From Acidiluteibacter ferrifornacis (GTDB taxonomy: Bacteria; Bacteroidota; Bacteroidia; Flavobacteriales_E; Vicingaceae): 64,000 nt of DNA. A program made the position numbers and the translations under genes. The stretch is taken from positions 124,001 to 188,000 of the forward strand of contig NZ_WWNE01000008.1 in the NCBI RefSeq assembly GCF_009909615.1, in the 5' to 3' direction. This document shows positions 378 through 12,375 of this stretch, one piece after another; within the stretch, counting starts at the first letter, position 1, and every line of letters starts with the position of its first letter. The notes beneath the pieces were generated by a model. It ran no database searches. It saw only the letters and a program-made list of their open reading frames with translations, and was not told the origin of the DNA.

Positions 378-3300
378 ATGAAAAGAATAAGTCTATTTTT
401 TGTTTTTATTTCAATGAGTATGTTTGCTTTTTCGCAAACTGTAATAGTCAATGAAGATTTTGAAGGCAGTTCAACTTCATTTAATAGTTATGCAGCTTCT
501 AATCCATTTGCATTTTGGAATACAAACTCTGTTTTTAGTACGAGTGGTTCAAAATCCTATCGCGGAGTAGTAACTTTTAACGACACTTTATTTTTGGAGT
601 CTAATTCATTTTCTACGATGGGCTATTTGAGTGTGGGTTTATCCTTTAATCAAATTTGTAAAATAGGAAGCCTGGACAAGGCTCATTTGCAATATTCATT
701 AGATAATGGAATCACATGGACCTATCTCACCACTAATGAATATTTAGGTACAGGATTATTTGCTCAAAACCTGTTTTCTTCAAGATCATACGCGGATTGG
801 TTATCCAGCCAACCTACAACCCTGCCAAATAATACGTGGTGGAAGAATGAAACTTTTGACATCTCTGCCACAGCCAACAATAGTCAAGTAAAAATTCGGT
901 TGGTACTAGTTGATGGGGATTTTAATGGCCCTGCTTCTAATTATGGGTGGTTAATCGATGATTTTCAAATTGTGGGAGCTGCTTGTGAGCTCATTCCACC
1001 TACTCTTTCAAATGCAACGGTGATTACTGGTGCCACTTATTCCTTGTCACCAACGCGATTATCAATTGATGCCTTTGATCAATCTGGAATCTCTTCCGCA
1101 AAAGTATACTTCACTATCAATAATGGGGCGATTGACTCTGTGTCATTGAGTAATGTATCCGGAAATACGTGGACAGGAAATTTGCCATCGGGGTCAATTA
1201 ATGATACCATTTGTTATTATTATTCTATAAGAGATGCCTCCACATGCTTTAATCAAGAAGTATTGCCAGCCAGTCAATGTTATCAATTTTATATTGACCC
1301 ATTACCGCCAGTGCCTTGCATAGGAACGGCTATAACAAACTATCCCTATAACGAAGATTTTACTACATTTCTAGTTGGCACAAGTGGCGCTCTGGTTAAT
1401 AACTGGGAAAATTCGACATTTGATGATTTTGACTGGTACGTTCACTCAGGTGCAACAACTTCTACAAATACGGGACCTTCCTCAGATCATACAGGAGGAA
1501 ATGGCAAATACCTCTATATGGAAGCAACAGGGCCTTTATCAGGAGAAGAGGCTCATTTAATTACACCCTGCTATACTTTAGGTAGTAATTCATTTTATCA
1601 ATTTAGCTTTTGGTACCATATGTATGGAGTGGGAATGGGAGAGTTGCATGTAGATCTTTTTGCGAATAATATGTGGAACTTGGACATTATGCCTTCCATC
1701 GCTGGAGATCAAGGGAATCAATGGCTGAAAGCTACTATTGATGTGTCTAATTATGCAGGTCAGACCATTAAACTTCGGTTTAGAGGCCGAAAAGGCCCTA
1801 GTTATACCAGTGATATTGCGCTCGATGATATTGGTTTAAATGTAACTACAGGAGAGGATGTCTCAGTTGCATCAATTAGCAATCCAATGGATAAAACATG
1901 TTTGTTAAATCCATCTCAAAGAGTGGATGTTTCAATTTTTAATAATGGTTTCGTGCCTATTTCATCCATTCCAGTGGCTTATCAATTAAATAATGGTCCT
2001 GTGGTAAGGTCAACTTCTACATCTAGTATTTTGCCCTCTAGTTCCCAAATCTTTACTTTTTCAACACCAATTACCGTCACTCCAAATGTTCAGCATACTT
2101 TAAAAATTTGGACAGAATTATCAACGGATATCAATACCGCTAATGATACTTTAACTTATAATTTTGCAATGAATAGTACTGTGAGTTCGTTTCCTTTTAC
2201 AGAATTGTTTGACCAGTTTACTGTTGGAGCTCCTGGCATTCTTATCAATGGTTGGGAAAACGATCAGCAAGATGATATGGATTGGAATGTTAATACCGGA
2301 GGAACTCCATCGGCTAATACTGGACCTTCTCAAGATCATAATTCAATTGGAGGAGGAAATTACATGTATATTGAAACAAGCAACACTCCTCAAGGTTACG
2401 AAGCGTATCTCATTAGCCCTTGCATTGATTTATCCAATGTACTAGCCCCTCAATTGAATTTTTGGTACCATATGTATGGAGCGACTATGGGTGCTTTGCA
2501 TGTGGATATATGGTCTAATGGTGCTTGGGTATTAGATGTAATGCCGATTATTTCAGGAAATCAAGGCAATGTATGGAAAAATCAGATTGTCAATTTGTCC
2601 ACATACGCTAATCAAATCATTAAAGTTCGATTTAGAGGGGAGGTAGGATCCAGTTTTACTAGTGATATAGCAATAGATGAAGTGACCTTGACTAATCTAG
2701 CCACTATTGATATTTCACTTAATTCCTTGTCTAGTCCAATGAATCAGGGATGCCAGACCGCTTTAAACCAAAATGTAAGTTTAAACATTCAGAATTTCAG
2801 TAATGTGACCCTCACTAATATCCCTTTAGCGTTTCAAAATAATGGTGGAATTACATATAGAGACACGCTGGCAGGTCCGTTAGCACCTTTTGCCAGCCAA
2901 AACTTTACCTTTACTAATCAAGTAGTTTTTCAACCATCAATGAATAATTTTTTCAGAGTATGGCTAGAAGAACCATTAGATTTAAACCCTTTTAACGATA
3001 CCCTTGTAAGGCTGATTTCAACCAATGGAATCGTCAATCAGTTTCCCAATAATGAGGATTTTGATGGCTTTTTTGTTGGGGCGCCGGGTACATTACTAAA
3101 TGGATGGGAGAATGAGTTAGCCGCAGACAATCACGATTGGTATGTTAATTCGGGAGCAACGCCTACAGCCTTAACTGGCCCTGTTGGTGACCATACTAAT
3201 CTGAATGGGAATTACATGTACATCAAAGCGGATGGAAATAGTGGTAAAAGTGCCAGATTACTCAGTCCATGTTTTGATTTAAGTTCTACCAATAAGGCTC

Positions 3301-3836
3301 AACTTTCTTTTTGGTATCATATGCTTGGTTCAGATATGGGCAGTTTACATGTTGATATTATCATTAATGGGTTTTACGTCCAAGATATTATTCAGCCTAT
3401 TTCAGGAAATCAAGGGCAAAGTTGGTTGAATCAAACGATTGACTTATCCGGTTATTCTGGAACTATTCGGGTAGTTTTTAGAGGTGATGTGATTACTAAA
3501 TCTGGAACAATAGCAGGTGATATTGCCATTGACGATATTGAGGTAAGTGATGTTTTAGTTGGATTAAATACCTATGCCACGAGTAATTATGTTGGGGAAA
3601 TTTATCCTAACCCAACGGCTAGAGCTGCTTATATTGCTCTTCAATCATCATTGGAACAAACAACGCAAATAAAGATTATGGACATGAAAGGACAGTTGAT
3701 CCAACAATCAAGTCTAAATTTAGGAATGGGTAAACAAACGGTAGAGCTACCCATTGACAACTTGAAAAGTGGTGTTTATCTTTTGCAACTCTCAATGGGC
3801 AATGATCTTTATACACGTAAGTTGATTGTCCATTAA
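378..3836 (+). CDS. Large T9SS-secreted protein with three MAM-like repeats
   Basis: The product has 1152 residues. A Sec signal peptide (about residues 1-19, ending AFSQ) is followed by a jelly-roll-like region (about 20-205), an Ig-like stretch, and three copies of a module of roughly 170 residues starting near 320, 604 and 887. Each copy has a GxLxNxWEN start, a GP..DH turn, a WYHM(Y/L)G strand (near 411, 694 and 978) and a SDIA.D(D/E)-like end. This resembles MAM/concanavalin-type jelly rolls, often carbohydrate- or protein-binding in surface proteins. CARDB-like Ig linkers (for example DVSVASISNPMD) separate the copies. The last 75 or so residues (IYPNPTARAAYI to LYTRKLIVH) are a type A T9SS sorting domain. 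No catalytic motif is visible, so an adhesin or matrix role is an inference. It stands alone between two terminators. Confidence 0.9.
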   Translation: MKRISLFFVFISMSMFAFSQTVIVNEDFEGSSTSFNSYAASNPFAFWNTNSVFSTSGSKSYRGVVTFNDTLFLESNSFSTMGYLSVGLSFNQICKIGSLDKAHLQYSLDNGITWTYLTTNEYLGTGLFAQNLFSSRSYADWLSSQPTTLPNNTWWKNETFDISATANNSQVKIRLVLVDGDFNGPASNYGWLIDDFQIVGAACELIPPTLSNATVITGATYSLSPTRLSIDAFDQSGISSAKVYFTINNGAIDSVSLSNVSGNTWTGNLPSGSINDTICYYYSIRDASTCFNQEVLPASQCYQFYIDPLPPVPCIGTAITNYPYNEDFTTFLVGTSGALVNNWENSTFDDFDWYVHSGATTSTNTGPSSDHTGGNGKYLYMEATGPLSGEEAHLITPCYTLGSNSFYQFSFWYHMYGVGMGELHVDLFANNMWNLDIMPSIAGDQGNQWLKATIDVSNYAGQTIKLRFRGRKGPSYTSDIALDDIGLNVTTGEDVSVASISNPMDKTCLLNPSQRVDVSIFNNGFVPISSIPVAYQLNNGPVVRSTSTSSILPSSSQIFTFSTPITVTPNVQHTLKIWTELSTDINTANDTLTYNFAMNSTVSSFPFTELFDQFTVGAPGILINGWENDQQDDMDWNVNTGGTPSANTGPSQDHNSIGGGNYMYIETSNTPQGYEAYLISPCIDLSNVLAPQLNFWYHMYGATMGALHVDIWSNGAWVLDVMPIISGNQGNVWKNQIVNLSTYANQIIKVRFRGEVGSSFTSDIAIDEVTLTNLATIDISLNSLSSPMNQGCQTALNQNVSLNIQNFSNVTLTNIPLAFQNNGGITYRDTLAGPLAPFASQNFTFTNQVVFQPSMNNFFRVWLEEPLDLNPFNDTLVRLISTNGIVNQFPNNEDFDGFFVGAPGTLLNGWENELAADNHDWYVNSGATPTALTGPVGDHTNLNGNYMYIKADGNSGKSARLLSPCFDLSSTNKAQLSFWYHMLGSDMGSLHVDIIINGFYVQDIIQPISGNQGQSWLNQTIDLSGYSGTIRVVFRGDVITKSGTIAGDIAIDDIEVSDVLVGLNTYATSNYVGEIYPNPTARAAYIALQSSLEQTTQIKIMDMKGQLIQQSSLNLGMGKQTVELPIDNLKSGVYLLQLSMGNDLYTRKLIVH

Positions 3837-5264: not shown

Positions 5265-5645
5265 ATCGGATATATCTTAGACGGCTAAAATTAGTCAAAT
5301 ACTTCGTATTTTTTAAATAAGTCAATGCTGTATTCCTTCGGATTATTTTTATTTCGGATTTGATCAATGAATGTGTCGGTGGATGATGCAATACTTTTTC
5401 ATAGGAGGACAAATCGTGTTGAATTAATCCCATAATCAAATCGCTGTAAATACTATTTTTAGAAGGTCATCGTCTGCTATTAGAGCCTCCTGATGCAGTT
5501 TTGTTTAACATGAGAGTATAGCGGTTCCAATAGAGTACCGCCCCTTTTAAAAAACTTGATTTGTATGGAACGGCGCTTTCAATTTGAAGTGAGATGCTCT
5601 TTTAATGGAACAATAATAAAAATAAATACACAAAAAAAAGGAAGA
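5265..5645. other. Intergenic spacer upstream of glyA
   Basis: I see no gene in this stretch of about 380 bases. A 61-codon minus-strand frame (5254-5439) overlaps the glyA start, has no recognisable domain and is best read as chance. The glyA promoter should lie in the part near 5265-5310. TAATTTTA (minus strand, 5285-5292) is a one-mismatch match to the -7 box. The right end holds the terminator of the PID-CTERM gene. Confidence 0.6.
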
Positions 5646-5665
5646 CTATTGGTCTTCCTTTTTTT
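5632..5665 (-). terminator. Terminator of the PID-CTERM gene, overlapping its stop codon
   Basis: GGAAGAC (5640-5646) pairs with GTCTTCC (5652-5658), extended by flanking A7 and T7 tracts. Read on the minus strand it ends in a run of T. The stop codon of the small gene (5646-5648) lies in the loop side of the hairpin, so the terminator and the 3' coding end are superimposed. Confidence 0.88.
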
Positions 5666-5876
5666 GATTCATTTCATATACTTTTTTACCACCGTAGGCA
5701 GCTCCTGCAATTAACAACCAGGAGAGTCCTCCATCAATGGGAACACAGGGAGGAGGGAAGCATGGACCAGGTCCACCGCCACCGCCAGGGCCACCACCAG
5801 GAGGTTGTGCATTTAAATCGGAGGTTGCTAAGAATAGAATAGCAACTAATGGTATATATCTCAATATCTTTTTCAT
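5646..5876 (-). CDS. Small PID-CTERM protein, likely exosortase substrate
   Basis: I chose the internal ATG at 5874-5876 (MKKILRYIPLV) over one seven codons upstream. It gives a clean signal peptide, and a TATATTTG promoter box overlaps the upstream ATG. The product has 76 residues: signal peptide 1-24 (ending LNAQ), a Gly/Pro-rich core 25-44 with two cysteines (C39, C44), then VPIDGG (45-50), a hydrophobic stretch LSWLLIAGAAYGG (51-63) and a basic tail beginning KK. The order PID motif, short transmembrane helix, basic end is that of the PID-CTERM sorting signal recognised by Bacteroidota exosortases. If cleaved near VPID, the mature product is only about 24 residues. It lies 34 bases after a T9SS gene and about 3.5 kb from an exosortase gene. 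The family call is from memory of the motif; the substrate role is inference. Confidence 0.85.
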   Translation of the reverse strand: MKKILRYIPLVAILFLATSDLNAQPPGGGPGGGGGPGPCFPPPCVPIDGGLSWLLIAGAAYGGKKVYEMNQKKEDQ

Positions 5877-5894
5877 ATTCAATTGTTCTGTGTG

Positions 5895-5902
5895 CAAATA
5901 TA
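5895..5902 (-). promoter_or_regulatory. -7 promoter box TATATTTG upstream of the PID-CTERM gene
   Basis: It matches the Bacteroidota consensus TAnnTTTG exactly on the minus strand and ends 18 bases before the chosen ATG. It could give the small gene its own transcript in addition to read-through from the upstream T9SS gene. I see no clear -33 TTTG. Confidence 0.5.
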
Positions 5903-5910
5903 GAAATTTC

Positions 5911-8900
5911 TTAGAAATTAAACTTTTCAGTGATCACTTCATTGTTGGTACGTACCACGATTAAATGGATACCATTTAATTCGGTCGTAAAATCTAGTTC
6001 CTTAGAGCCATTTCCATCAATACCAATGTATTGTGTAGTGGCTACTTTCTGACCATTTAAATTGTATATATCAACTTGTGCTTGTTGTGCTTCTTCAACT
6101 GCATAGTTCAATTCTACAATTTGACCTCTTTTAAGGATAGAAACTCCATTGGAAGATGGATTAGATTCCGAAGCCTTGTTCAATAAATCTATACAATCTT
6201 CTGCAGATTTAAATAAGTGCAATTCAAAACGATCGTATTTACCGGTATTGGCAGCGAAGGTGTAAGTAGCTTCTGAACTGAGGTCAATTATTTTACCTAC
6301 TTCTTTGTCTTCCAATAATGCACAGTTATAAACGGCTAACAATTCAGCTACATCTTCTGCTTCGATGGTATAAGAACCATTCTCTCCTGCCAAAAATGAA
6401 ATTGGAAGGTGGTGAGCGTTATCCATTGAGTTGATGGAAGATCCAATCAACTCCACATTACTCTCTGAAGCTTTTGTGATTAATGAAGTAGCAGCTTTGT
6501 GTGGACTAGCTAAGTAATATTCATCTTCTGTATCCAAGCCATTTTCAGCTGTAGAAGAAGGCATCACCGATAACTCATTACCAAACCCATTTCCTAAACT
6601 ACTTATGGCTAAAGCAAATTTCTTTTCTTTTTTCTGCTTAGAAATCAAGCTTATAGCCAATGGAAACTTGTTTGACTCATTAAATGTAATGACCTTATCG
6701 CTACCAGAAGTATTGTTCACCCAAAAACCTTGATGAGCGGCAATGAACCCACCAGTAAACAACTGGTAAGCTCCATTATTTTGGACATAGACGTAGAACT
6801 GGTTGCTTACTCCAGAAGGCTTCGTTACCGAGCTGTAATTGATGAAACAAGAATATGGATTAGCAATTAAATTAAAACCTGGTTTTAGTGTGATACTGAT
6901 AGGTCCTGTATAAGGAGTTCCTCTATGATCCATCGTTTGTGCGGCAAAAGTGGATAAGTTGTCTCCTAAAAATAGCTCAACTCCTTCTCCAGCTACAATG
7001 GTTTCAGCAGTAGAAGTGATGTATATATACGCTTTGGTAGTATTGTTGTATTTGGTAACGCTGTAGTAAATTGGTCCACCAGCACCATCTCTCGCATCTC
7101 CATCGTTACCGCCAACACCACTCATGAACAATTCTGCATCCCAATCGGCGATAGTTGTAGAAACTACAGGAGCAGTAATGTCCGCATAATTGGCTGCTCT
7201 AGCAGAGAAATAACGTTGTAAAATAAATTCTCCACTAAATGAGTTGGTAGCAGATGGCTGAATTTGCGCCTGTGTACTTGCATCAGAAACTAAAGTAACA
7301 GTTGCACCATCATTAACTAATTGTCCTGCTGCCACTTTAATAAAATTGGTAATGTTCCAATCTCCTGATTTAAAAGAAACCGTAGTACTGTTGTTGGCAT
7401 AAAAGTCAAATTGAGTAATAGCACTGCCCGAATTATTCCATAATTCTTGTGCTCCTGTTCCCACAAATCCGAGTAACCCTGTTGAGCTGCTAATCGAACC
7501 ATTTACCAATAAATCGCCATTGAGCAATAAACTGTCGTTGCTATTGAAATTTAGTGTTGCGCCTGCATCAATGGTTAAACCTTCAGCAGTAGCAGTTGCT
7601 CCATCTACATCAACGACACGCGGCGATGGAATTACTACATTGTCGGTTGAAGTAGGAACGCAAGTACAACTCCAAGTTGCCGGAGTATTCCATGCTCCAT
7701 CGCCTACAGCAGTGATCACGTTAGGACGCACCGCTAATGTAATGTAATCTCCATCAGTAAGCGCAACACCCGTAAACGTGATGGTTTCATCAATGGCGTT
7801 ATACGTTCCTATTAAGGATTGTGAAATACTAGAATTATCAAATGCTCCTGTGGTGTTATCGATTAATAAACGGTAATCATTTGCAGGGTCAACAGCAAAG
7901 TTATTACCAGTTAGAAAGAACTTGATGTCAATTGTTCCAGGGGTATTGGTAACATCTGCTCTCCATGTTTGATTGAATCGGTTACTTGCGTAAGCGGATC
8001 CTACAGAAGTAGTAGTGCTAAGGCCACCATTGTCATGCCCAATTAATAAATAATCTCCATTTCCCAATGTAGAAGCGTTAGAAATTTCTACGATTCCTGT
8101 TCCTTGAGCGTTGGTGTTGGCACCATCAGACTCTTGACCAATACCGAATACTTCAAAGTTGTGAGTTGAAATATGAGAATAATAGGTGTTGAGAGTGTTG
8201 ACACTAAATTTACTACCTAAATAAGCACTAATAATATTTCGTTCTGCTGAATTTAAGCGTCTATTAAAAATGATAATTTCTGAGATTTCGCCGTTTTGAA
8301 ACCTAATAGGGGAGCCTGATGAGTTGACTAATGTTCCAACAGTAGAGATAGAATTGGATAATAATGCTGTTCTTGTAATAGTACTATTGTCTCTACGTGC
8401 AGAATTCGCTCGACCATACTCCAACAGTCCACCAGTAAACGAGTTGTCTGTATGAAATTGAAAAATGGTTGGATCGTTTTGGGAAAATGGGAAGGTATAG
8501 TATTTATTAGGAGATGTGTAAGAAACACCCACCGCGTTTGAAATGGAGTAAATAAAGTGCTTTTGTAAGGTAAGTACACCATTTATAGCAGTGGACTGCG
8601 ATTGATGCACTGTGAAAACAGAAGTATGGTCAGTCGTTATATGACTGCTAAATTGCAGAAAATCGTTGGAGCCATCAAAGTCAACTGCAGAAATTCCATT
8701 TATGAGACTTGTTTTGAATAAGGGCTGTCTACTTGAAGTAGCCTGAATAGCGTGATTATTATTTCCTGAAAAATCGGTCCAAGAAGATATAGCAGAGTTG
8801 TCGGGTAGACTTAATCTATTAGCATCTAGCCAAACTAAGTTATCTGAGGAATTGCCAATTCCACCAGGTCCAATTTGAGAAAAAATTATCGTGGGGCTTA

Positions 8901-8940
8901 AAAAAAGTGTTAGTAGGAAAGGAATAAAATTTCTTTTCAT
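5911..8940 (-). CDS. T9SS-secreted protein with LamG-like N-terminal domain
   Basis: The product has 1009 residues with a signal peptide of about 21 (ending IIFSQ). Residues about 30-245 form a LamG/concanavalin-like domain (LVWLDANRLSLPD, WTDFSGNNNHA, VDFDGSNDFLQF, EIIIFNRRLNSAERN), typical of glycan- or ligand-binding jelly rolls. A second beta-rich part follows (about 250-395), then a GAWNTPATWSC module (about 410-520) common in large secreted Bacteroidota proteins. The C-terminus (IVELNYAVEE, VDIYNLNGQKV, GIHLIVVRTNNEVITEKF) is a type A T9SS domain. It sits between the exosortase pair upstream and the PID-CTERM gene downstream on the same strand, and has its own good promoter. No catalytic residues were recognised, so a surface or matrix adhesin is the likeliest role (inference). 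Confidence 0.9.
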   Translation of the reverse strand: MKRNFIPFLLTLFLSPTIIFSQIGPGGIGNSSDNLVWLDANRLSLPDNSAISSWTDFSGNNNHAIQATSSRQPLFKTSLINGISAVDFDGSNDFLQFSSHITTDHTSVFTVHQSQSTAINGVLTLQKHFIYSISNAVGVSYTSPNKYYTFPFSQNDPTIFQFHTDNSFTGGLLEYGRANSARRDNSTITRTALLSNSISTVGTLVNSSGSPIRFQNGEISEIIIFNRRLNSAERNIISAYLGSKFSVNTLNTYYSHISTHNFEVFGIGQESDGANTNAQGTGIVEISNASTLGNGDYLLIGHDNGGLSTTTSVGSAYASNRFNQTWRADVTNTPGTIDIKFFLTGNNFAVDPANDYRLLIDNTTGAFDNSSISQSLIGTYNAIDETITFTGVALTDGDYITLAVRPNVITAVGDGAWNTPATWSCTCVPTSTDNVVIPSPRVVDVDGATATAEGLTIDAGATLNFNSNDSLLLNGDLLVNGSISSSTGLLGFVGTGAQELWNNSGSAITQFDFYANNSTTVSFKSGDWNITNFIKVAAGQLVNDGATVTLVSDASTQAQIQPSATNSFSGEFILQRYFSARAANYADITAPVVSTTIADWDAELFMSGVGGNDGDARDGAGGPIYYSVTKYNNTTKAYIYITSTAETIVAGEGVELFLGDNLSTFAAQTMDHRGTPYTGPISITLKPGFNLIANPYSCFINYSSVTKPSGVSNQFYVYVQNNGAYQLFTGGFIAAHQGFWVNNTSGSDKVITFNESNKFPLAISLISKQKKEKKFALAISSLGNGFGNELSVMPSSTAENGLDTEDEYYLASPHKAATSLITKASESNVELIGSSINSMDNAHHLPISFLAGENGSYTIEAEDVAELLAVYNCALLEDKEVGKIIDLSSEATYTFAANTGKYDRFELHLFKSAEDCIDLLNKASESNPSSNGVSILKRGQIVELNYAVEEAQQAQVDIYNLNGQKVATTQYIGIDGNGSKELDFTTELNGIHLIVVRTNNEVITEKFNF

Positions 8941-8960
8941 CTTCTATAAAATATATCGTA

Positions 8961-8992
8961 CAAATCTACGTTAAAAAAATTTCTTATTCAAA
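8961..8992 (-). promoter_or_regulatory. Promoter of the LamG/T9SS gene (TTTG-N20-TAGATTTG)
   Basis: On the minus strand, TTTG (8992-8989) is followed after 20 bases by TAGATTTG (8968-8961). This fits the Bacteroidota sigma-A pattern (-33 TTTG, about 19-21 bases, -7 TAnnTTTG), and the box ends 20 bases before the ATG at 8940. It overlaps the last codons of the exosortase partner gene, so the T9SS gene can be transcribed independently of it. Confidence 0.65.
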
Positions 8993-9447
8993 GTATTTAA
9001 GGCATATAATGTGATACTTATAAATAAGAATATAAGGGGACTATGTATCCACCCAACTAATATACGTAAGTATGGATAAAAAGTTGGGAATTGATTCAAA
9101 AAAAATGCAAGTAGCATTAGAAGAATTGTTAGAACTGTGCAAAATCCATAAATAAACTTTACCATGGTTTTGCCCAAAGCGCTATTAAACCCTTTTTTAA
9201 TTCCAAAATACGTAATGAACATAAACAGCACAGTAAATCCTACAGTTAACCCGTACTTCAGTAGATTCAACTCAGAAGGATTGTAATTCATTAAATAAGG
9301 CAAAGGAGTGGTTTTAGCGTAAAAAGTATTAGCTCCCTCCATGATGGCGTTGATGCTTCTGAACACCACTTCTCGCCAATAGCTTAGGACATAAAGGAGA
9401 GTTAAAGCTGCCCACCAAACTGCTCTTCGACTTATTTTTTGATCCAT
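8971..9447 (-). CDS. Small membrane protein coupled to the exosortase
   Basis: The 158-residue product is predicted to have about four membrane helices: near 12-24 (WAALTLLYVLSYW), 65-83 (YGLTVGFTVLFMFITYFGI), 96-117 and 134-150. A polar loop (about 25-60, REVVFRSINAIMEGANTF) lies between the first two. Its start overlaps the end of the exosortase gene by 16 bases, so the two are probably translationally coupled. Bacteroidota exosortases are commonly paired with a short membrane protein of about this size (the flavobacterial exosortase F-associated family is one). Position, length and topology fit, but I cannot assign the exact family from sequence alone. A role as a partner or stabiliser of the exosortase is inference. 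Confidence 0.75.
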   Translation of the reverse strand: MDQKISRRAVWWAALTLLYVLSYWREVVFRSINAIMEGANTFYAKTTPLPYLMNYNPSELNLLKYGLTVGFTVLFMFITYFGIKKGFNSALGKTMVKFIYGFCTVLTILLMLLAFFLNQFPTFYPYLRILVGWIHSPLIFLFISITLYALNTLNKKFF

Positions 9448-9971
9448 TGGTAAATTTTAATGCGCCACATCCACAGTAAAAAGACGATGCCGTAAACAAA
9501 AAGGGTGAAGGTGTAGGAATGGTGAAAATCCAATTGGTCTGGAGCGTAGACCACAATCAGCGCCAAGGCCGTTACCCGGAGTACGTTTAAGCTGTGTATG
9601 ATCGTGACCCCAACTGCTATGGAAAGCCCTTTCATCCACCACACCCCTTTAAAGGAAAGGATGAAGGTGGCGTACAAAATAAACAAGCTCAGCCCGTCGC
9701 AAGGTCCGCCTATGATGACTCCACTACTGCCTTGGATTCCCATTAGGAATTGGGTTTGGGAGGAATTGGACATCAATTCGTATCCCAGCCCACTGAGGAT
9801 CCATTCCGATTGAGCAATGATAATGTTAATCAGCCCACTGTCAATGGAGGTGTAAGGAGAGAGCCCCCAATGGTAAAGGGCTGATAGTATAGCATAGATG
9901 GCTACCATTTTTAAGATAAAATGAAAGCCTTGCTTGTTTTGCTGATAGACGAGTTTTAGATTGCTCCACAT
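9432..9971 (-). CDS. Exosortase/archaeosortase family protease
   Basis: The product is a 179-residue inner-membrane protein with several hydrophobic segments. The three conserved catalytic residues of the exosortase family are in place: cysteine C91 in GGPCDGLSLF, arginine R132 in HSLNVLRV and histidine H150/H151 in LDFHHSYTF. In the known family this enzyme recognises a short C-terminal motif plus transmembrane helix, cleaves it, and probably transfers the protein to an extracellular acceptor. Its length is that of the compact Bacteroidota forms (XrtF-like or a related Xrt type; I cannot decide which). The likely substrate is the PID-CTERM protein at 5646-5876. It is divergently placed 64 bases from the polysaccharide gene cluster, a context often seen for exosortases, and overlaps the next gene. 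Confidence 0.93.
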   Translation of the reverse strand: MWSNLKLVYQQNKQGFHFILKMVAIYAILSALYHWGLSPYTSIDSGLINIIIAQSEWILSGLGYELMSNSSQTQFLMGIQGSSGVIIGGPCDGLSLFILYATFILSFKGVWWMKGLSIAVGVTIIHSLNVLRVTALALIVVYAPDQLDFHHSYTFTLFVYGIVFLLWMWRIKIYQWIKK

Positions 9972-10035: not shown

Positions 10036-12375
10036 ATGCAAAATAATACTGCTCACAGTACTTCTTTTCAAATAGATCCTCGCATTTTTCTGGTTTACAT
10101 TTTAAGGTATTGGTATTTTATTTTAATTGGCCTGATTGGTGGAGTTGTATATGCTTTTTATCAAGTGCGATATACTCCTGCTACCTATTCCACTAATGCG
10201 CGTATGTTGGTGAAAGATGAATATTCTTCGTGGGGGCAAGAGTATTTTTTGCCTGGGATGGAGCTAGTGAGTGGAAGAAACCGATTGATCAACGAAATTG
10301 GAATCATCAAGTCTTATCCACTGATGGATAGAGTGGCTAAAAAATTGAACTGGGAAGTTTCTTATTACAAATTGGGGAATATCAAAACTACCGAAATGTA
10401 TCCCATTTCTTCTTTCAAGGTCGATTTGGTTGAGGGGGTGAAAACGTTTCAACGCAATTACATTCAATTTTTGTCTGATGACAAGTTCCAAATTAGTTTG
10501 GACATAGAGACCATAAAGGATGGATCCATATATCAAGTAGGTGAGGTTTTTGAATGGGATGGTGGGAAGTTGATTTTGACTTCTAATTATGTGGAAGAAA
10601 GTGATGAAGTTTTCGCATTTCAATTTAATCCAATTAGCAGTTGGACGCGTTATTTTCAGCAGGCAATCAATATCGATGTAGAAAACACGGAGTCCTCTAT
10701 TTTGATTTTATCTGAGAATAATCAGACGCCCCAAAAGTCTATTGATTTTTTAAATGCCCTAATGGATGAGTATATTCAATGGGGTATGGATCAGAATAAT
10801 GAAATAGCAGTCAACACTATGGCATTTGTGGATCAGCAATTGCAAGGTATTGCCGATTCTTTGGTGGTTACTGAATATCGATTGGAGCAGTTCCAACAAA
10901 AGAATTTTTCTGAGCGGATTTTTATTACGGAGGAAGAGAGTAACATAATGGAGGTGTTTCAACTGGAAGAAGAGTTGACCCAAAAAAGCATTCAGCGGGA
11001 ATATTATTCAGCATTAATTAAAACACTAGAATCAAAAGAGTTTACTGCTTTTCCCTCTTCGGCTGTATTTGGCTTTCTTGATCCCAATATTGATCGGCTG
11101 ACGGAGCGCATTCAAGTTTTGGTTCAAGAGCAGAGGGAGGCTAGTTTTCAATTTCAAAATGTTAATTTAAGAATCGAGCAGCAGCAGCAGGAGCTTGATC
11201 GTCAAATTGATGCTTTGTTGTCGGTTGCAAAAGCGAACCGAGAGCAAGTGAATGTGTTGATAGATTCACTCAAAAAAATGATTGCTAAGGAAGAGAATAA
11301 AGTTTTACGAATTCCTAGCGAACAACGGGAATATTTCAATCTAAAGCGAGAAAATAAATTGTTGAGTGATTTGTATACCTTTCTGTTGAATAAGCGTTCT
11401 GAGGCTGGAATTGCTAAAGCCTCCAATGTACCCAAAGCTCAAATATTGGATTACGCCACTGAATTTCGGAGTGCCTACGTTGGTCCTAAGGTTTCTGGCG
11501 TTTATATTAACGCCATCTTTCTGGGTTTATTAATTCCCCTGTTTATTATTCTACTACTGTATTTTTTTAATTCCAAAATTGTTGATCGTGCGGATTTGGA
11601 AAAGATTACCTCTATTCCATTGCTAGGTTCTATTATGCATAAAAAAGATTTGGATAGCAATGTGGTGGTGAGTACCAATTTAAAATCCATCGTTTCCGAA
11701 GCGTTTCGAAGCATACGTACCAACATCAATTACATGGTAGAAGGAAAGGAACAACAAGTGGTGATGGTGACTTCATCCATATCTGGAGAGGGAAAAACCT
11801 TTACTTCCATTAATTTAGCGGCCATTTATGCCGCCTCTGGAAAAAAAACCATCCTGGTGGGTGCAGATTTACGTAAGCCGAAGATTTTTCAAGACTTTGG
11901 ATTGACCAATGAAGTTGGATTGAGTACCTACTTGATTCGAAAAGGAGGGTTGAATGATTGTGTGCGTAAAACGCATGTTAAGAATTTAGATTTAATATCA
12001 TCTGGGCCTATTCCGCCCAATCCCGCAGAATTGATTGAAAGCGAACGAATGCACCAATTTTTAGCGGATCTGAAGTCTACTTATGACATCATCATTATCG
12101 ATACACCTCCGGTGGGATTGGTAACAGATGCCTTAATCATCAATCAACATGTAGATGCGTCCATCTATATTGTGCGACATGGGTATACCAAAAAATCCTA
12201 CTTAGAAAATATCAATGAATTACATGTTCAAGGAAAAATAAAAAGATTAGGGATTGTAGTGAATGCAGTCAAGGAAAAGAATGGGCCATTAGGAAGTGGT
12301 TATGGCTATGGCTATGGTTATGGATACGGCTATGGATATGGATACGGCTATGGATATTATTCAGACGATAATTAG
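10036..12375 (+). CDS. wzc: Wzc-type polysaccharide co-polymerase / tyrosine autokinase
   Basis: The product has 779 residues. The first membrane helix (about 18-41) opens a Wzz-like periplasmic domain, with a long coiled-coil region (about 260-440, rich in E, Q and R). The second helix is near 492-514 (VYINAIFLGLLIPLFIILLL). The cytosolic BY-kinase has Walker A SISGEGKT (about 581-588), Walker A' TILVGADLRKP and Walker B IIIIDTPP (about 684-691). The C-terminus is a tyrosine cluster of ten alternating Tyr-Gly steps (about 756-775) before YSDDN. In the family, autophosphorylation of this tail controls chain length and export of exopolysaccharide. It heads the plus-strand locus and ends 3 bases before the flippase gene. 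The usual upstream partner wza (outer-membrane export protein) is not in the window. Confidence 0.95.
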   Translation: MQNNTAHSTSFQIDPRIFLVYILRYWYFILIGLIGGVVYAFYQVRYTPATYSTNARMLVKDEYSSWGQEYFLPGMELVSGRNRLINEIGIIKSYPLMDRVAKKLNWEVSYYKLGNIKTTEMYPISSFKVDLVEGVKTFQRNYIQFLSDDKFQISLDIETIKDGSIYQVGEVFEWDGGKLILTSNYVEESDEVFAFQFNPISSWTRYFQQAINIDVENTESSILILSENNQTPQKSIDFLNALMDEYIQWGMDQNNEIAVNTMAFVDQQLQGIADSLVVTEYRLEQFQQKNFSERIFITEEESNIMEVFQLEEELTQKSIQREYYSALIKTLESKEFTAFPSSAVFGFLDPNIDRLTERIQVLVQEQREASFQFQNVNLRIEQQQQELDRQIDALLSVAKANREQVNVLIDSLKKMIAKEENKVLRIPSEQREYFNLKRENKLLSDLYTFLLNKRSEAGIAKASNVPKAQILDYATEFRSAYVGPKVSGVYINAIFLGLLIPLFIILLLYFFNSKIVDRADLEKITSIPLLGSIMHKKDLDSNVVVSTNLKSIVSEAFRSIRTNINYMVEGKEQQVVMVTSSISGEGKTFTSINLAAIYAASGKKTILVGADLRKPKIFQDFGLTNEVGLSTYLIRKGGLNDCVRKTHVKNLDLISSGPIPPNPAELIESERMHQFLADLKSTYDIIIIDTPPVGLVTDALIINQHVDASIYIVRHGYTKKSYLENINELHVQGKIKRLGIVVNAVKEKNGPLGSGYGYGYGYGYGYGYGYGYGYYSDDN
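12301..12360 (+). repeat. Tandem hexanucleotide repeat encoding a Tyr-Gly tail
   Basis: Sixty bases are made of TAT/TAC and GGC/GGA/GGT codons in strict alternation: 9 glycine and 11 tyrosine codons, the last two tyrosines adjacent. Codon usage varies between units, so it is not a perfect DNA repeat. Gain or loss of a 6-base unit would change the number of phosphorylatable tyrosines without a frameshift. Confidence 0.9.

Follow-up and report, generated by a model that had tools for sequence, protein, structure and literature searches.

An XrtX-type exosortase locus of Acidiluteibacter ferrifornacis with a PID-CTERM mini-protein encoded behind a T9SS cargo

Introduction

Sorting by exosortases is expected to involve export of the substrate, its retention by a hydrophobic tail, and cleavage and transfer by a Cys enzyme. 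We know of no exosortase acceptor that has been identified. To our knowledge, XrtF is the only exosortase of Bacteroidota with a knockout phenotype. Biofilm formation and surface colonisation by Flavobacterium johnsoniae require xrtF and its partner gene as well as T9SS genes, and the XrtF substrate has been named as future work (PMC10936215).

NCBIfam contains models for PID-CTERM (NF046080), exosortase X (NF046081), and the XrtX-associated membrane protein (NF046082). The consecutive accessions suggest that NCBI curators built NF046080–NF046083 as one set. With NCBIfam families in place for both XrtX and PID-CTERM, the curators probably know of the bare pairing. The open-access literature yielded no paper on PID-CTERM or on XrtX as an enzyme. 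A common chemistry of T9SS anchoring sugars and exosortase acceptors has been speculated on (PMC7468200), and beyond this speculation no open-access paper linking exosortases with T9SS cargoes was found.

Here we describe an XrtX-type locus in a 64,000-nt stretch of the A. ferrifornacis genome, designated the window. In addition to the exosortase, its membrane partner, and a PID-CTERM mini-protein, the locus encodes a large T9SS cargo. We found no description of this cargo pairing, or of the putative peptide nature of the substrate, in the sources read.

Results

Layout of the locus

The minus-strand genes are transcribed in the order of exosortase, membrane partner, T9SS cargo, and PID-CTERM protein, followed by a terminator-like hairpin (Table 1). 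Genes were called with a simple script, and the ATG at 5876 is the likeliest start of the PID gene. The membrane partner gene and the exosortase gene overlap by 16 nt. The cargo gene starts 30 nt downstream of the partner gene, and the PID gene starts 34 nt past the cargo stop. On the opposite strand, the Wzc-like kinase gene is divergent to xrtX and separated from it by 64 bp, an orientation that recurs in many loci of the window's family.

The original prediction described a sorting locus in which the exosortase is coupled to a small membrane protein, a protein with a VPID-helix-basic C-terminus lies on the same strand, and a polysaccharide cluster is adjacent. The gene overlap, the VPID-GG-helix-KK terminus of the mini-protein, and the adjoining Wzc-type cluster agree with each of these points. 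The T9SS cargo was absent from that prediction and is the most informative part of the locus. Close by, a further T9SS cargo is encoded that has three MAM domains (window 378–3836, plus strand).

Table 1. Features of the locus, in window coordinates
Feature	Position	Strand	Evidence
xrtX-like exosortase, 179 aa	9432..9971	-	NF046081, TIGR04128, and TIGR04178 scores; invariant residues; tree; AlphaFold2
XrtX-associated membrane protein, 158 aa, all-helical	8971..9447	-	NF046082 match, homologues, AlphaFold2
T9SS cargo of 1009 aa with a signal peptide, a weak G8-like domain, and a C-terminal sorting domain of type A	5911..8940	-	TIGR04183, PF10162
PID-CTERM mini-protein, 76 aa: signal peptide, mature peptide, helix, basic tail	5646..5876	-	NF046080
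PID-CTERM sorting signal (positions 1-24 of the 25 in the profile)	5673..5744 (contig 129673-129744)	-	Profile match
Terminator-like hairpin and T-run over the PID gene end	5633..5665	-	14-15 pairs, both strands
Wzc-like polysaccharide co-polymerase/tyrosine kinase that opens the polysaccharide cluster	10036..12375	+	TIGR01007, 186.8 bits (cut-off 108)

Exosortase and membrane partner

The exosortase belongs to the exosortase/archaeosortase superfamily, with 42.3 bits against the superfamily model TIGR04178 (cut-off 23). Among the subtypes it matches the XrtX model NF046081 best, with 152.5 bits. This score is under the cut-off of 170, and scores of 140 to 170 also occur in several other genomes of the window's family. 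The match to the XrtF model TIGR04128 (cut-off 90) reaches 90.3 bits as a protein and 89.2 bits in the genome search, with the protein positioned outside the XrtF clade, and that to the XrtY model is 44.4 bits. In a tree of 101 rows, the exosortase falls into a 39-row clade of same-family and other XrtX proteins with a support of 96/93. The XrtF proteins lie on the other side of the tree, whose deepest split is weakly supported (90/53). By profile, the protein is nearest to XrtX, and in the tree it groups with the XrtX proteins of the window's family; we do not file it as an XrtF.

The original prediction named C91, R132, and H150 or H151 as the Cys-Arg-His set. C91, R132, and H151 are invariant in an alignment of 13 diverse XrtX and XrtF relatives; the Cys and Arg thus stand, and the histidine is H151 rather than H150 because the former is invariant. 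The AlphaFold2 model of the exosortase has a mean pLDDT of 84. A sequence search for solved structures returned no match, and fold comparison of the exosortase and partner models gave no meaningful match. A scan of the collection with a two-sequence exosortase alignment recovered four loci only. An exosortase match at C19:238189 was discarded as spurious, as its frame is full of stops and lies within a T9SS gene.

The membrane partner matches NF046082 over nearly its full length with 26.6 bits (E 4e-6), under the cut-off of 75. Its position and gene overlap are as expected of an XrtX-associated membrane protein. Thirty other loci have homologues, namely L138 and 29 loci of the window's family, and residues E26, N33, K64, R128, and P137 are invariant. 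The AlphaFold2 model has a pLDDT of 91.5.

The PID-CTERM mini-protein

The mini-protein matches PID_CTERM (NF046080) with 44.7 bits (cut-off 26) over residues 46–69 of 77; the genome, which is 99.9% complete, contains no further PID-CTERM match. It is composed of a 23-residue signal peptide, whose cut was read from the sequence by eye, and a 25-residue mature peptide, QPPGGGPGGGGGPGPCFPPPCVPID, ahead of the sorting signal. As far as can be read from sequence, the PID-CTERM "protein" is a peptide between a signal peptide and a sorting signal.

The same organization is seen in other genomes. Among 90 PID proteins, with the signal peptide cut placed by a simple rule instead of a trained predictor, the mature part has a median length of 24 aa (range 11–59) and is rich in Pro and Gly. 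The signal peptides mostly end just before a Gln, and an N-terminal Gln of the mature peptide agrees with the Bacteroidota Q-rule (PMC10653852). The window's family has an extra conserved Cys pair immediately before PID. In many genomes of another class, the mature part resembles QPGLPSAPSQAPID throughout.

PID frames are merely 60–90 codons long, as spurious reading frames might be. That they are spurious is scarcely conceivable: this reading is refuted by the match to a curated profile, by a sequence and a gene position that are conserved in ten families, and by the absence of PID frames from exosortase-free genomes.

Two variants of the mini-protein were observed. A rare long PID-CTERM protein of 973–995 aa, unlike the mini-proteins, is encoded in G166 (L280:1615-4536, minus strand). 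In family f9 (L170, L143:15025-15204), the sorting signal reads PI[ST]G in place of PID; the gene immediately follows that of a T9SS cargo, and an exosortase intermediate between XrtF and XrtX lies nearby.

Co-occurrence of XrtX and PID-CTERM

The survey covered 296 good genomes of the phylum, and each exosortase was typed by its best-scoring model among XrtX, XrtF, and XrtY. PID-CTERM is present in 49 genomes. It occurs in 42 of the 44 XrtX genomes versus 7 of the 252 others, and all seven exceptions carry XrtF or XrtY. None of the 205 genomes without an X/F/Y-like exosortase has a PID-CTERM match. Fisher tests on these counts are extreme, with shared ancestry ignored and with counts from related genomes that are not independent. 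The two XrtX genomes with no detectable PID-CTERM are G147 and G151 (L141, L142), in which the substrates are divergent or lost.

In the window's family, a PID gene lies within 20 kb of xrtX in 29 of the 34 genomes with both, at a median distance of 3.6 kb. PID genes are distant from xrtX in many multi-copy genomes, so the link to polysaccharide genes is not general. Curated family matches, recurrence of the module in same-family relatives, and genome-wide co-occurrence put the locus far beyond chance.

The original prediction regarded the pairing of exosortase and substrate as not settled. It is not wholly open, given the consecutive NCBIfam models for PID-CTERM, exosortase X, and the associated protein. 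The two results that would have contradicted that prediction did not turn up: PID-CTERM is not common in genomes without such an exosortase, and the genome holds no second exosortase nearer to the PID-CTERM type. The profile comparison that it called for ranks XrtX over XrtF and XrtY.

XrtN and the predicted substrates of XrtF

The other exosortase in the genome of A. ferrifornacis is an XrtN (C20:163636-165045, L001), with 249 bits against TIGR04476 (cut-off 200). As a second exosortase, XrtN could process the PID protein. We rejected this reading as very improbable: XrtN adjoins a VIT/VWA protein of its own, whose PEP-like tail matches the end of the XrtN-sorted family, and PID follows XrtX, XrtF, and XrtY over the 296 genomes.

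A profile built on the PID tails of the window and of XrtF genomes detected PID-like mini-proteins under the cut-off in further XrtF genomes. A second profile found such proteins outside its training set in G053, G174, G202, G206, and G245; for G202 and G206, the profile match alone was displayed, without the full reading frame. In family f5, 22 of 23 XrtF genomes contain a PID-like mini-protein (G107 by the NCBIfam model; none in G057), and 0 of 6 genomes without XrtF do. None was found in 20 exosortase-free genomes of the class, or in the six XrtF genomes of family f4. The predicted XrtF substrates (L359, L345-L363, L298-L305) amount to one short secreted protein per genome, with G[LF]PID[DENQ], a helix, and a basic tail. 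In a Flavobacterium-like genus, the PID-like genes share a common gene neighbourhood. A concrete short XrtF substrate is thereby proposed in a tractable laboratory genus.

Pairing of PID genes with T9SS cargoes

The cargo of the window has a T9SS type A sorting domain, matching TIGR04183 with 28.2 bits (cut-off 23) over residues 946–1007 of 1009. It scores 20.5 with PF18962, under the cut-off, and 22.7 with the G8 model PF10162 (cut-off 22.9). Cargo homologues are present in most loci of the window's family.

In fetched loci of XrtX- and XrtY-type genomes, 84 of 105 PID genes lie at most 600 nt behind a same-strand gene with a T9SS tail, and 21 have no cargo directly upstream. The pairs come from ten families: the window's (30/37), f24 (29/32), f10 (6/7), f3 (4/6), f43 (4/5), f22 (3/5), f51 (3/4), f9 (2/3), f2 (2/2), and f5 (1/1). 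In most pairs, the PID start falls between –4 and +130 nt relative to the cargo stop, and a few pairs overlap. The background is 34–125 T9SS tails per genome, about 1–4% of genes. The 3.5-Mb genome of the window has 125 T9SS-tail matches, and a PID gene accompanies just one of them. The profile with which tails were counted derives from 15 tails, mostly from these loci, and partner cargoes were therefore rechecked against the curated TIGR04183. Nineteen of 20 tested pass its cut-off; the last scores 19.2 versus 23.

The passenger domains of the partner cargoes are unrelated and include ice-binding, kelch, DUF5122 propeller, beta-helix repeat, lamin-tail, and G8 domains. Thus, what is conserved is the T9SS tail and the PID peptide behind it. 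In the window's family, the YPNP motif is absent at the start of the sorting domain in all 27 readable paired tails, while the unpaired tails compared keep it. Loss of YPNP was dropped as a mark of paired tails, because paired tails of other families keep the motif and the unpaired set was biased to top-scoring tails.

XrtF-only genomes provide a negative control within the data set: none of their 14 PID-like genes is paired with a T9SS cargo. These solitary genes fit an ordinary sorting system, in which XrtX would process the PID peptide and bring it to the surface, while the cargo would be just one more co-regulated gene for the surface or biofilm, neither physically nor functionally tied to the peptide. 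The standing of XrtX and PID-CTERM as established NCBIfam families and the joint requirement for xrtF, its partner, and T9SS genes in F. johnsoniae biofilm and surface colonisation (PMC10936215) also favour this reading. Against it, nearly each paralogue has its own upstream cargo, as for the six PID genes scattered in G127 and G191, and some cargo stop and PID start codons overlap. On balance, we regard ordinary sorting as quite possible, if somewhat less than probable.

The tight one-to-one pairing and short spacing could instead indicate a role for the peptide, or for the XrtX product, as a chaperone or maturation factor that acts on the cargo in the periplasm during T9SS export, rather than as a surface anchor. 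This is distinctly improbable, as very short, low-complexity, and near-identical peptides across unrelated passenger domains are unlike specific chaperones.

Discussion

The pairing provides a gene-level link between sorting by the XrtX exosortase and secretion by T9SS. From the family assignment, active-site residues, gene order, co-occurrence, peptide size, and pairing, we infer cleavage, transfer to an acceptor, and contact between peptide and cargo. We see close to an even chance that XrtX cleaves at PID and transfers the peptide to an acceptor in the envelope, and that the peptide, once there, serves the T9SS cargo produced with it.

According to this proposal, the locus would be a dedicated XrtX system of one enzyme and one substrate. 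The mini-protein would be exported by Sec, and signal peptidase would expose the Gln, which may become pyroglutamate under the Bacteroidota Q-rule. The VPID-GG-helix-KK tail would keep the mini-protein in the inner membrane, and XrtX with its overlapping partner would cut near PID by means of C91. XrtX would then transfer the peptide of about 25 residues, containing Pro, Gly, and Cys, to an acceptor in the envelope. The most plausible acceptor is a glycan or lipid connected with the Wzc cluster; a glycan is plausible here because that cluster adjoins the locus. Since the peptide and the cargo are encoded in a single transcription unit, the conjugated peptide most likely serves the cargo, probably as a docking or anchoring partner at the surface. 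Several observations weigh against the proposal: the near-identical mature peptides of paralogues with different cargoes, which speak against cargo-specific binding; the 21 PID genes with no cargo directly upstream; the PID genes distant from xrtX in many multi-copy genomes; and the scores of the window's exosortase and partner, which lie under the NCBIfam cut-offs.

A broader generalization is rather unlikely in our estimate: XrtX, and by extension XrtF and XrtY, may perform peptide conjugation rather than protein sorting, each XrtX peptide being the surface partner of the T9SS cargo on the same mRNA. If so, two unrelated sorting machines, one per membrane, would meet on one anchored product. 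Substrates with 14–35 mature residues are well suited to mass spectrometry, by which the cleavage site and acceptor would be directly measurable.

Comparison with known systems

The XrtN system resides in the same genome as the window's system, but on an unlinked contig. XrtN is long, and its VIT/VWA substrate has a PEP-like tail.

The PEP-CTERM/EpsH (XrtA) system of Proteobacteria (PMC1569441) shares the signal-helix-basic tail, the membrane Cys enzyme, and the link to exopolysaccharide genes. However, it handles many large substrates per genome and has no T9SS link, whereas the window's system handles one or few mini-proteins.

The T9SS type A/PorU system (TIGR04183; PMC7468200) acts on the same signal that is present on the large protein of the operon. 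PorU processes cargo tails at the outer membrane, and XrtX would process the PID tail at the inner membrane. Between the two, the link drawn here is one of gene pairing alone.

XrtF of F. johnsoniae (Fjoh_1448/1449; TIGR04128) is likewise a small exosortase with an overlapping partner gene, and PID-like mini-proteins are its predicted substrates, as for XrtX. The profiles of the XrtF and XrtX partners are weakly related (hhalign probability 71). XrtF differs in forming a separate tree clade and in its PID-like genes, which have [DEN] or similar after PID and stand alone, not behind T9SS cargoes.

Exosortase X/PID-CTERM (NF046081, NF046080, NF046082) has the exosortase subtype, the C-terminal signal, and the type of adjacent membrane protein in common with the locus studied here. 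The window's exosortase and partner score under the equivalence cut-offs of these models.
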